From Dietzia sp. ANT_WB102 (GTDB lineage: Bacteria > Actinomycetota > Actinomycetes > Mycobacteriales > Mycobacteriaceae): 64,000 nucleotides of DNA. The notes beneath the pieces are model-generated. The model did not search any database. It was not told the origin of the DNA and was given only the letters and a program-made list of their open reading frames with translations. This document shows, piece by piece, positions 48,271 through 51,894 of this stretch. Each line of letters begins with the position of its first letter. Positions within the stretch are counted from its first letter, which is position 1. The stretch lies in contig NZ_VOBA01000001.1 of the NCBI RefSeq assembly GCF_008369165.1, forward strand, positions 1,419,630 through 1,483,629, given 5' to 3'. Both the position numbers and the translations under genes were made by a program.

Positions 48271-48402
48271 GCTCGCTCCTTCGTCTCGGGGGAAGTCTGT
48301 CGTCTTCCGAAGTGTGGGGGATTCGGCGCGAACGTGCATCCGGACGGGCGCCCGGCAGAAACGCGTACCGTCGACCCGGAAACTCGACCCAGGAGGCCAC
48401 CA

Positions 48403-49326
48403 ATGAGCACCGATCCGACCGCCTCGCCCTCCGGCCAGCCCGACGACGCGATGCTCGTCGACCCCACCTCCAAGTACGAGGTGGAGATCCCGATGCAAGC
48501 GCAGCCCGTTCCCGGGCTCGCGTCAGAGCTCGTGCCGCCTGCCGATCACGGGGAGACGTCCTACGTCGGCCACGGCCGGCTCACCGGCCGACGAGCACTC
48601 ATCACCGGCGGCGATTCGGGAATCGGACGGGCCGTCGCGATCGCGTACGCCCGAGAAGGCGCCGACATCGCTATCGGCTACCTGCCGTCAGAGCAGTCGG
48701 ACGCCGACGAGGTCGCGGGGTTGGTCCGCGAGGCCGGACGGACGTGTGTGCTGCTGCCCGGCGATGTGGGTGACGAGGAGGTGGCGCGGGGGATCGTCCG
48801 CGATGCAGTCGCCGGGCTTGGCGGGATCGACGTGCTGGTGCTCAACGCGGCCCGGCAGACGTACGTGGAGAACCTCGAGGACCTGACCTCCGAACAATGG
48901 GCCGAGACGATGAACGTCAACATCTCGGCCCCGTTCTGGATGATGCAGGAAGCACTGGGTCACCTGCAGCCCGGGGCGAGCGTCATATTCACCTCGTCGG
49001 TGCAGGCCTACACGCCGTCGCCGGGGCTCGTTGACTACGCGACCTCGCGCGCGGCGGTCAACACGATGTCCAAGGCGCTGGCGCAGCAGCTCGCGCCGCG
49101 GGGGATCCGCGTCAACGCCGTGGCTCCGGGACCGTTCTGGACCGCGCTGCAGGTCACCGGTGGACAGAAGCCGGAGAAGCTTCCGTACTTTGGGCAGAAG
49201 AATCCGCTTGGCCGGCCCGGCCAGCCGGTGGAGATGGCCGGTGCGTACGTGTACCTCGGCTCCGAGGAGTCGTCGTACACCACCGGCAACACGCTGTCGG
49301 TGACGGGCGGCGCACCTACTCCCTGA
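48403..49326 (+). CDS. SDR-family oxidoreductase with Tyr-xxx-Arg active site
   Basis: 307 residues, the longer SDR subgroup with an N-terminal extension of about 60 residues (PMQAQPVPGLASELVPPADH, similar to stress-linked YghA/YdaD-like SDRs). Cofactor motif ALITGGDSGIGRAVAIAYAR, DVLVLNAARQ, Ser in IFTSSVQAY. The catalytic Lys of YxxxK is replaced by Arg (DYATSRAAV), which normally lowers activity. AGGAGG precedes the ATG by six bases. Reducing or dehydrogenating activity is therefore uncertain. Confidence 0.82.
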   Translation: MSTDPTASPSGQPDDAMLVDPTSKYEVEIPMQAQPVPGLASELVPPADHGETSYVGHGRLTGRRALITGGDSGIGRAVAIAYAREGADIAIGYLPSEQSDADEVAGLVREAGRTCVLLPGDVGDEEVARGIVRDAVAGLGGIDVLVLNAARQTYVENLEDLTSEQWAETMNVNISAPFWMMQEALGHLQPGASVIFTSSVQAYTPSPGLVDYATSRAAVNTMSKALAQQLAPRGIRVNAVAPGPFWTALQVTGGQKPEKLPYFGQKNPLGRPGQPVEMAGAYVYLGSEESSYTTGNTLSVTGGAPTP

Positions 49327-49491
49327 GACGAGTCGCGCATCGCCGGCAGGATGTCTGCTTTCGGGTCGGACGCTCCCGCGGGCCTTTCGCTGAAACCCGC
49401 CCCCCGCAGCCGCGACCGCCCCCGCCAGTCCCCGCCGCTCCCGCTGCCTTCGCCGCTTCCGCTGCCTTCGCCGCTTCCGCCCTCGCCGCAG

Positions 49492-49553
49492 CCGCGCGCA
49501 ATTACTGCAGCCGCTCGTGAAATTCCGTGAGCGGCTGCAGTAATTACGCGCGC
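49492..49553. repeat. Long palindromic repeat, left copy
   Basis: The 17-base arms 49500-49516 and 49529-49545 are perfectly complementary, and the stem extends to 49492/49553 with two mismatches. The core arm contains TACTGCAGCCGCT. The 12-base loop reads gtgaaattccgt. The same core and a closely similar loop recur at 50637-50696 on the other side of the AbiEi-like pseudogene. Just before it (49417-49490) the DNA is low-complexity, with an 18-bp unit repeated at 49441-49476. Confidence 0.85.
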
Positions 49554-49578
49554 ATGGCGATGGGTCGGTTAGGCATGG

Positions 49579-50517
49579 TCAGCGGAGCTGCGCTCGCCGG
49601 AGCCCACCGAGCAATAGCTGCTCGAATCTCTTCGGCATGAACAGGTCGTTCCAGACCCAACGGATCACCACCACGCCGAGATCCCGCAGTCGGTCCTCGC
49701 GTAACTTCTCCCGCCACACGACCTCACCGGGGTCTGCACCGTCGACCGCACGCCCTGAGTACTTGATCCGGCCATCGAACTCTCCGGCCAACGCGCCGTC
49801 GCCCCAGGAAAAGTCCGTGCGCGCGACAGCGTGACCTTCAGCGGACAGGTACTGGTGTTACAGCCGAGGAATCGGGATTGTGCCCAGGGATCTCATGACG
49901 CAACGAGAGAGCGACTCGCCTGGACTCTCCGCTAGCGGGTCGGCGAAGTTTATGGCATCCCGCGCGATCGCGACCCCTGTGCGGCCGCGGTGTAATTCGA
50001 GTTCGTCCATGAGAGACCGGCGGGTTGCCAGCTCACTTCTCAGCGCGTGGTCCGCTGCGCATACGCCTGCATCGAAACCCGCCGAGCGGGCTAGGTCGAC
50101 AATCGTTCTGTCGATACTGGTGACGGGAATGCCCTCGACTTCGGTAATGGACAAGGAGTTCGCGGGGGAGGTATGGATCTGAACGTGGGCAGCGTTACGC
50201 CCACCGGTAGGTCGGTCGACAGTGAGGTGAGCCCGGTTAGCTCTGGCTCGTACCAGAGGTAGGCCGTGCAGCTCTGCCGCAGTGTGGTGGCTGATCACTG
50301 CATCGGCCGGCCCCTCCGCGAGCGCGATCTTCGATGCCCGCACGGCGGCTTGTATTCCGCTCTCGCCAGGTGCGGGCAAGTGGAACCATCCGTGCCTGCT
50401 CTTAACCAGCTGTCCGGCGGCAGTCGCCGCGGCGAGAGTGCGGTGCGACAGTCCCGCCCTGATGGCCTCTGCGGTGGTGAACGGCTGGCCCGGGATGAAC
50501 GGGATCTGTGGCGTCAT
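49579..50517 (-). pseudogene. AbiEi/DUF559-type protein gene with an in-frame stop
   Basis: One frame of 313 codons is interrupted only by TAA at 49860-49858. The N-terminal 219 residues (FTTAEAIRAGLSHRTLAAAT; GQLVKSRHGWFHLP; IPVTSIDRTIVDLARS) match the AbiEi family of type IV toxin-antitoxin-associated proteins. The part after the stop (GALAGEFDGRIKYSG and VWREKLREDRLRDLGVVVIR) is the DUF559 endonuclease-like C-terminus. The residues across the stop read IPRL-stop-HQYLSAEG, so a single C-to-T change of CAA (Gln) explains it. Sequencing error is possible. The partner toxin is not adjacent; such solo genes are frequent in actinobacteria. Confidence 0.8.
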
Positions 50518-50636
50518 GCCGGCCACGGTGCCAGGGCCGCCGAGCTTGATCCGGTCCTAGAACGGGCTCGCTGGCACATGCTGTGGAGGGGGCCAGCCTG
50601 TGAAATTTCGTCCAGGTCCAGCCTTCCCATCGCAAA

Positions 50637-50696
50637 CGCGCGCAAGTACTGCAGCCGCTGAAGAAATTTCGTGAGCGGCTGCAGTACTTGCGCGCG
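50637..50696. repeat. Long palindromic repeat, right copy
   Basis: Arms 50637-50659 and 50674-50696 are perfectly complementary over 23 bases around a 14-base loop (gaagaaatttcgtg). The arm contains TACTGCAGCCGCT as in the copy at 49492, and both loops share a GAAATT core. A further GAAATTTCGT stands at 50602-50611. It lies upstream of the AbiEi-like pseudogene and downstream of the alcohol dehydrogenase gene. Confidence 0.88.
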
Positions 50697-50753
50697 GATG
50701 CGGGATGCGGGAGGGGCGGATGCGGGATGCGGGAGGGGCGGATGCGGGAGGGG
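50695..50753. repeat. 22-bp tandem repeat next to the right palindrome
   Basis: Two exact 22-bp units (50695-50716 and 50717-50738) and a partial third (to 50753), each built from cggatgcggga and gggagggg pieces. It joins the palindrome directly and precedes the end of the alcohol dehydrogenase gene by about 30 bases. Confidence 0.8.
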
Positions 50754-50781
50754 CCGCGGGTGTGCCGCGCAGGGCGGAGCG

Positions 50782-51894
50782 TCAGGAGTCGTGAATGATC
50801 ACTCCACGCATGATCTTCCCGTCCTTCAGGTCCTGGTAGCCCTGGTTGACCTCGTCGAGCGTGTACGTCGTGGTGATGAGTTCGTCGAGCTTGAGCTTGC
50901 CCTCGTCGTACAGGCGCAGCAGCTTGACGATGTCGTACTGCGGGTTGGCCGAACCGAACAGCGAGCCCTTGATGGTCTTGCCGAACAGGGCCATCATCGT
51001 GCCACTGACCTGCACGGTCTTGTCGGTCATGTTCCCCAGGCCGGTGATGACCACCGTGCCGCCCTTGCCGATCACGTCGAACGCGCTCGAGACGACCTCC
51101 TCCTCGACCGTGCCCACCAGGATGAGGGCCTGGTCGGCCATCTGACCCCAGGTGAGCTTCTCGACCTCGGCGTGGGCCTCGGCCGCGTCGGCGAATGCGT
51201 GGGTGGCGCCGAATTTCAGCGCCTCGTCCCGCTTGAACTGCACGGGATCGACCACGACGACGTGCCGGGCACCCGAGTGGACGGCGCCTTGGACGGCGTT
51301 GATGCCGAGCCCGCCGATGCCGTAGATGACCACGGTGTCGCCCTGGCGGACGTTGCCGGCGTAGGTGGCGGTGCCCCAACCCGACGGGACACCGCAGCCC
51401 ACGAGCACGGCCTTGTCCAGCGGCAGCCAGTCGTCGACCTTGACCACCGAGTGCTGGGAGATGACCGAACGCTCGGAGAAGGTGCCGAGCATGCACATGG
51501 CGCCGAAGTCCTTGCCTCCCGAGTGGAAGCGGAACGTGCCGTCGGGCATGTGGCCCTCGAGGATCGTCGCGCCCATGTCACATAGGTTCTGGCGGCCGGT
51601 GGAGCAGTACCGGCATGTGCCGCAGTTGGGGATGAACGAGCACACGACGTGGTCGCCGGGCTTGACCTTGGTGACGCCGACTCCGACTGCCTCGATCACG
51701 CCCGCTCCCTCGTGGCCACCGACGATCGGGAAGCGGGGTGGGAGTGAACCGTCGGACAGGTGGAGGTCGGAGTGGCACAGGCCCGCGGCCGTGTACTTGA
51801 TGAGGACCTCGCCGGGGCCGGGATCGTCCAGGTCGAGCTCGATGATCTCGAACGGCTTGTGGAGGTCGAACAGTACTGCTGCCTTGGTCTTCAC
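50782..51894 (-). CDS. NDMA-dependent (mycofactocin-linked) alcohol dehydrogenase
   Basis: 370 residues, zinc-dependent medium-chain dehydrogenase. Catalytic zinc ligands in AAGLCHSDLH and GGHEGAG, structural zinc cysteines in CGTCRYCSTGRQNLC, cofactor motif YGIGGLGINAVQGA. MKTKAAVLFDLHKPFEIIEL and the KFGATHAFAD and GNPQYDI-like (SANPQYDIVKLL) segments follow the NDMA-dependent alcohol dehydrogenase family, whose tightly bound NAD is recycled by the mycofactocin system. The GTG at 51894 has AAAGGA upstream. It lies 152 bases below the aldehyde dehydrogenase, likely in one operon. Confidence 0.88.
   Translation of the reverse strand: MKTKAAVLFDLHKPFEIIELDLDDPGPGEVLIKYTAAGLCHSDLHLSDGSLPPRFPIVGGHEGAGVIEAVGVGVTKVKPGDHVVCSFIPNCGTCRYCSTGRQNLCDMGATILEGHMPDGTFRFHSGGKDFGAMCMLGTFSERSVISQHSVVKVDDWLPLDKAVLVGCGVPSGWGTATYAGNVRQGDTVVIYGIGGLGINAVQGAVHSGARHVVVVDPVQFKRDEALKFGATHAFADAAEAHAEVEKLTWGQMADQALILVGTVEEEVVSSAFDVIGKGGTVVITGLGNMTDKTVQVSGTMMALFGKTIKGSLFGSANPQYDIVKLLRLYDEGKLKLDELITTTYTLDEVNQGYQDLKDGKIMRGVIIHDS

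Follow-up and report, generated by a model that had tools for sequence, protein, structure and literature searches.

Paired long palindromes around AbiEi-like nuclease genes in Dietzia: a possible two-part selfish system resembling REP/RAYT

RAYT transposases are a frequent explanation of dispersed bacterial palindromes, and another known class, the ERIC-type or MITE-like palindromes, is long and intergenic, inserts in a species-specific manner and has no transposase of its own. Closest in arrangement to the locus described here are the REP/RAYT systems, which are described as dispersed, lineage-specific extragenic palindromes with a solitary gene between two of them and solo copies elsewhere (PMC2817692, PMC3116915, PMC3733652). 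Type IV antitoxins provide a relative of a different kind: the promoters of AbiEi and Rv2827c carry pairs of 23-bp inverted repeats to which these proteins themselves bind (PMC7319586). A third point of comparison is the free-standing EDxHD/Vsr-like homing endonuclease I-Bth0305I. No description of palindromes flanking AbiEi-like genes was found in the openly accessible literature.

The window, a stretch of 64,000 nucleotides from Dietzia sp. ANT_WB102, contains a single AbiEi-like gene set between two palindromes of one family, which we call family A. The features of the locus, in window coordinates, are:

48334 to 49326, plus strand: SDR-family oxidoreductase gene, the conserved left neighbour
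49433 to 49468, no strand: 18-bp tandem repeat adjoining the left palindrome
49487 to 49556, no strand: left palindrome, family A copy, at a distance of 22 bp from the AbiEi-like gene's stop, in the convergent junction with the SDR gene
49579 to 50526, minus strand: AbiEi-like gene with a C-terminal Vsr/I-Bth0305I-like nuclease domain, a pseudogene in this strain
49858 to 49860, minus strand: in-frame TAA stop within the AbiEi-like gene
50602 to 50611, no strand: GAAATTTCGT, third core-like fragment, between the right palindrome and the start of the AbiEi-like gene
50631 to 50700, no strand: right palindrome, family A copy, between the 5' end of the AbiEi-like gene and the 3' end of the alcohol dehydrogenase gene
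50694 to 50754, no strand: tandem repeat (GCGGATGCGGGATGCGGGAGGG and a shorter unit) adjoining the right palindrome
50782 to 51894, minus strand: zinc-dependent alcohol dehydrogenase gene, the conserved right neighbour

Both elements are near-perfect palindromes of about 70 bp, 86% identical to each other over 70 nt. Their perfect stems of 17 bp (left) and 23 bp (right) and the GAAATT core in both loops were measured exactly as the initial annotation had described them, and the GC-rich tandem repeat that it joined to each palindrome and its third fragment are likewise present at the positions listed. Among the intergenic hairpins of the window these two are the strongest. In a 464 kb sample of the same genome, 15 hairpins reached a score of at least 15, against 2 in a mirror-repeat control, with the right copy ranking first and the left copy third. 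Searching the whole genome (G000, 3.28 Mb) revealed eight family A copies, the two in the window and six solo copies, none of which adjoins another AbiEi gene; the family is thus not confined to this locus. Because of these eight copies, the reading of the pair as unrelated local terminators is ruled out, in agreement with the earlier proposal of one repeat family. An alignment of 27 family A copies from several genomes showed covariation between the arms, with 48 double-change cells where shuffled alignments gave a mean of 24.8 and a maximum of 39; the conserved blocks are CGCGCGCAA, CTGCA and CCGC.

The repeats differ from REP sequences, which are 20–40 bp long and carry a GTAG/CGTC tag at one end, in being about 70 bp long and often containing inner direct repeats of 19–20 bp; no such tag was found at the ends of the symmetric family A palindromes. 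As a separate observation, GAAATTTCGT at 50602–50611 matches the palindrome core and may be a half-site or a promoter element, and a related sequence, GTGAAATT(C), lies at the same place upstream of the gene in two relatives (G019 and G016).

The gene itself was first annotated as a lone AbiEi-type gene. It is indeed solitary, with no AbiEii nucleotidyltransferase toxin gene adjacent and the SDR and alcohol dehydrogenase genes as its neighbours, but it is not intact: since its frame is interrupted by the TAA codon while the orthologues in three relatives (G019, G016, G007) are open, we consider it a pseudogene in this strain. The AbiEi assignment of the N-terminal part comes from PADLOC (E 3e-23). 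The Pfam AbiEi_4 match stays below its cut-off, the C-terminal domain has no Pfam name, NCBIfam has no family for the protein, and a sequence search of the PDB with it returned nothing, so that the structural matches derive from fold search only. An AlphaFold2 model of the intact G019 orthologue reached a mean pLDDT of 91.5 and a pTM of 0.87, from an alignment (A1) that included two rows, L245 and L304, in the wrong frame (19–20% identity). With Foldseek, the N-terminal part of this model matched AbiEi (6y8q, E 8e-6) and Rv2827c (1zel, E 2e-4), and the C-terminal part matched the catalytic domain of I-Bth0305I (3r3p; TM 0.73 by target length, probability 0.99, with a weak E of 0.095) and also Vsr (1vsr). 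Five residues, E201, D235, E246, D248 and K252, are near-invariant and would fit a PD-(D/E)XK/Vsr-type active site. The predicted structure therefore suggests a protein with an AbiEi antitoxin-like N-terminal part and a C-terminal domain resembling Vsr and I-Bth0305I. The label of an immunity-type gene given to it at first is unproven, the fused domain being predicted to be of the homing-endonuclease or Vsr-like kind.

Compared with the type IV antitoxins of S. agalactiae (AbiEi) and M. tuberculosis (Rv2827c), the protein shares the N-terminal fold and family matches, and those antitoxins likewise bind inverted repeats beside their own gene; it differs in having no AbiEii partner gene in the window, in the extra C-terminal Vsr-like domain, and in repeats that also lie downstream and dispersed. 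To the homing endonuclease it may be linked by the predicted fold of the C-terminal domain (3r3p) and by a patchy presence at fixed loci, as expected for homing genes; here, however, the gene stands outside any intron or intein and is bracketed by whole palindromes.

To place this arrangement in a wider context, the left and right 600-bp flanks of the Dietzia AbiEi-like genes and of their top matches in the family's other genera were compared with each other, a score of at least 40 bits counting as positive. Matching flanks were obtained at 25 of 30 Dietzia loci, at 10 of 20 further Dietzia loci and at 17 of 26 loci in other genera, giving 52 of 76 overall, with 24 of 76 lacking a pair at the threshold used. 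Among controls, which were taken from Dietzia only, solitary genes with 100 bp or more of free sequence on each side had matching flanks in 2 of 119 cases, both tandem IS duplications, and random genes in 2 of 245. The difference is significant (Fisher's p = 4.5e-26 for 52/76 against 2/119) if loci are taken as independent, although they are not, because the AbiEi-like genes occupy fixed orthologous loci and those of Dietzia amount to about 17 orthologous positions. The two-sided arrangement around an AbiEi-like gene thus recurs at most loci tested.

Which palindrome family is present depends on the locus and the species (C on both sides, E on both sides, F on both sides, and others elsewhere), and in genomes with several families, such as G009, G016 and G019, the same family stands on both sides at most loci. 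In our own genome and in G007, each with one AbiEi-like gene at the search cut-off, that gene is bracketed by the sole family found repeated in the genome. The family also tracks the AbiEi clade: mapping it on the protein tree required five changes, which is the minimum, when shuffles required 13.3 on average and none of 200 came as low. This test left out 15 of the 50 proteins, including the pseudogene and the G007 protein, and the agreement is helped by the orthology of the loci. Beside one AbiEi-like gene, in G003, lies a perfect 60-bp palindrome without a loop (L245:1377-1436).

We then compared the SDR/alcohol dehydrogenase junction between our genome and 16 others. The gene lies between two A palindromes in our genome, G019 and G016, and between two B palindromes at the same junction in G007. 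The 13 species that lack the gene have neither A nor B there; in their place stand palindromes resembling C, D or E, or plain hairpins. The A pair thus accompanies the gene in its three A-type carriers and is missing from the 13 non-carriers. The carriers are scattered on the species tree, which calls for four changes, gain or loss, and the sister of G016, G012, lacks the gene at this junction.

This co-occurrence, together with the paired repeats at many AbiEi loci, would be expected if palindrome, gene and palindrome moved as one cassette through their palindromic ends with help in trans, as the initial annotation had considered. We regard such movement as very unlikely. Throughout the genus, the genes sit at a few shared orthologous loci, their carriers are scattered, and most palindrome copies, including those of family A, are solo; no case was found of the whole unit at a new site facing a clean empty site in a relative. 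A helper of the known kind is also missing: RAYT (Y1_Tnp, PF01797) or IS200 genes were found in none of 23 Dietzia genomes, positive controls being recovered in 5 of 14, which rules out RAYT/IS200 as the mobiliser.

The solo copies, on the other hand, behave as insertions. At junction J1, between a TetR gene and a tRNA, only a short spacer and a conserved hairpin on the tRNA side are present in most species, and the spacer contains palindrome A in our genome, F in G019 and C in G004, G005, G008 and G009; three families have therefore entered the tRNA-side slot independently. At J2, cobN runs directly up to, or overlaps, the following cob gene in most species. Palindrome A is inserted there in our genome and in G016, where it lies in frame in the part of a cobalamin-synthesis gene that encodes the N-terminus (L134, G016:C1:219300-220300), and the sister species G012 has an empty site; other, unrelated palindromes occupy the same place in G001, G006 and G020. 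Because of such empty sites in sister species, we take the solo copies to be real insertions, and what moves or multiplies is mainly the solo palindrome. Sites also persist through changes of sequence. Four family B sites in G007 are orthologous to family A sites in our genome, two at the AbiEi locus and the others at J3 and J6, the B copies on C1, C6 and C34 (L057, L112, L111) matching our J0, J3 and J6. The same sites hold a different family in the two genomes, which indicates that the sequence has been exchanged in place.

The traffic at J1 and J2, slots that receive several unrelated palindromes, could be read as mere coincidence at hot spots, with REP-like repeats of unknown origin piling up around weakly constrained and patchy genes such as the AbiEi-like ones, one of which is broken here. 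This is the least probable of the explanations we weighed, given that the same family stands on both sides at most loci despite several families per genome, and that matched controls showed such flanks in only 2 of 119 cases.

A different account treats the palindromes as bidirectional terminators at gene 3' ends, homogenised by gene conversion or duplication, so that an AbiEi gene would simply happen to have two 3' junctions beside it. Most copies do lie just 3' of genes, often convergent ones; the long hairpins of the genome sample are mostly at 3' junctions, and the gene-less versions of the SDR/alcohol dehydrogenase junction keep one or two other hairpins. We nevertheless find it unlikely, since no T-run follows the family A hairpins at the copies seen despite their 3' position, the conserved tRNA-side hairpin of J1 is still in place with the palindromes added beside it, the J2 palindrome separates cob genes that are coupled, with its G016 copy continuing in frame into the protein downstream, and matching hairpins on both sides of ordinary solitary genes are rare (2/119).

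The position of the repeats around the gene raises a further alternative. One palindrome of a pair commonly precedes the gene start by 95–270 bp, its partner often lying near the stop, and the upstream copy could be an operator through which an AbiEi-like regulator represses itself, just as paired inverted repeats mediate the repression by AbiEi and Rv2827c of their own promoters (PMC7319586). The copies downstream and elsewhere in the genome would then form a small regulon or act as insulators, the nuclease-like domain would play no part in spread, and the palindromes would co-evolve with the DNA specificity of the protein; the pairing maintained by covariation is in keeping with this. Such a regulatory role is rather improbable as the full explanation: the solo copies of our genome are found 3' of genes or inside an operon and not at promoters, a copy at the stop codon is in no place for an operator, the insertions at J1 and J2 are species-specific, and the nuclease-type residues are conserved.

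The internal structure of the repeats offers a hint of what may be recognised. In most of them a short motif occurs twice per arm, 19–20 bp apart, and the motif differs by family: GCAGCCGC in A, ATCCGCTACT in E, GCTCCACTT in the family of another genus (g10) and GCGCGGGTTGCA in L304. The best internal lag was 19 or 20 bp in 47 of 84 segments, against 3.0 under a Markov null (maximum 7) and 31 of 554 real intergenic windows; it was not seen in the consensus sequences tested for families B, C, D and F.

The families differ in distribution, with roughly 5 to 50 palindrome copies per genome. Family B is found in G007 only, most copies of C are in G004, G005, G009 and G010, and E and F are further families of the relatives. 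The GCTCCACTT family of g10 has many copies per genome, some of which flank AbiEi-like genes. Family D (GACAAGAGCGTTCCGAACA), with most copies in four Dietzia species (G011, G012, G013, G018), reaches about 20 loci per genome at the 3' ends of ordinary genes, and no AbiEi partner was found for it. We also considered D pairs as the borders of a mobile gene and rejected the idea, as these pairs flank ordinary genes. In the metagenome-assembled genome HGW-Actinobacteria-2, an independent family of long palindromes with a GCAGCCGCTACCGAAATTCCGGTAGCGGCTGC core occurs at two convergent junctions (L039:2918-2949 and L040:6364-6395).

Taken together, we favour, with a probability of roughly one half, a reading in which recognition of the cognate palindromes by the AbiEi-nuclease is what homogenises and spreads them, the locus of the window being a decayed two-part selfish system. 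The parts would be a gene for an AbiEi-type DNA-binding protein with a Vsr- or homing-like nuclease, and two bracketing copies of its own recognition element, a palindrome of about 70 bp with, in most families, a motif twice per arm. Mechanistically, the N-terminal winged helix would bind the repeated motifs of the cognate palindrome, a step that we propose by analogy with AbiEi and Rv2827c, each of which binds inverted repeats at the promoter of its own gene. The nuclease domain may then nick or cut at the palindrome, and repair from other copies would keep the palindromes alike throughout the genome and occasionally seed new solo copies, mostly in tolerant intergenic spots. That this protein binds, cleaves and is the driver of the spread is what we infer; such a cycle would explain the cognate pairs, the changes in step on both sides, the solo insertions and the absence of RAYT.

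Among described systems, REP/RAYT (REPtrons, REPINs, TIRtrons) shares the overall plan of a solitary gene that stands between two copies of a palindrome also dispersed as solo copies elsewhere, except that the gene here is AbiEi-like and not RAYT, and the enzyme an AbiEi-nuclease instead of a Y1/HUH tyrosine transposase. ERIC and MITE-like elements are also long intergenic palindromes with species-specific insertion and no transposase of their own; here, in contrast, cognate copies are maintained to the left and right of the members of a gene family. An AbiEi-nuclease system that works like REP/RAYT with an unrelated enzyme is thus the best reading of these likenesses, and its recurrence with different palindromes in several genera suggests a selfish system of gene and repeats of a kind not previously described. 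Generalised to a class, the proposal becomes more tentative. Actinobacteria of the Mycobacteriaceae type may harbour selfish elements in which an AbiEi domain joined to a Vsr or homing nuclease spreads and homogenises its own target of about 70 bp, with new recognition sequences arising in concert to the left and right of the gene and in the dispersed copies, and with an ancestor recognising inverted repeats in common with the AbiEi antitoxins.

REP-like repeats occur here without RAYT and are associated with a different enzyme family. Should the AbiEi-nuclease act on the palindromes, REP-like repeats would have a second, independent origin. This would also give a reason for the common "orphan" AbiEi genes of these Actinobacteria, and would supply matched families of proteins and DNA sites, a natural series from which changes of recognition could be read directly.
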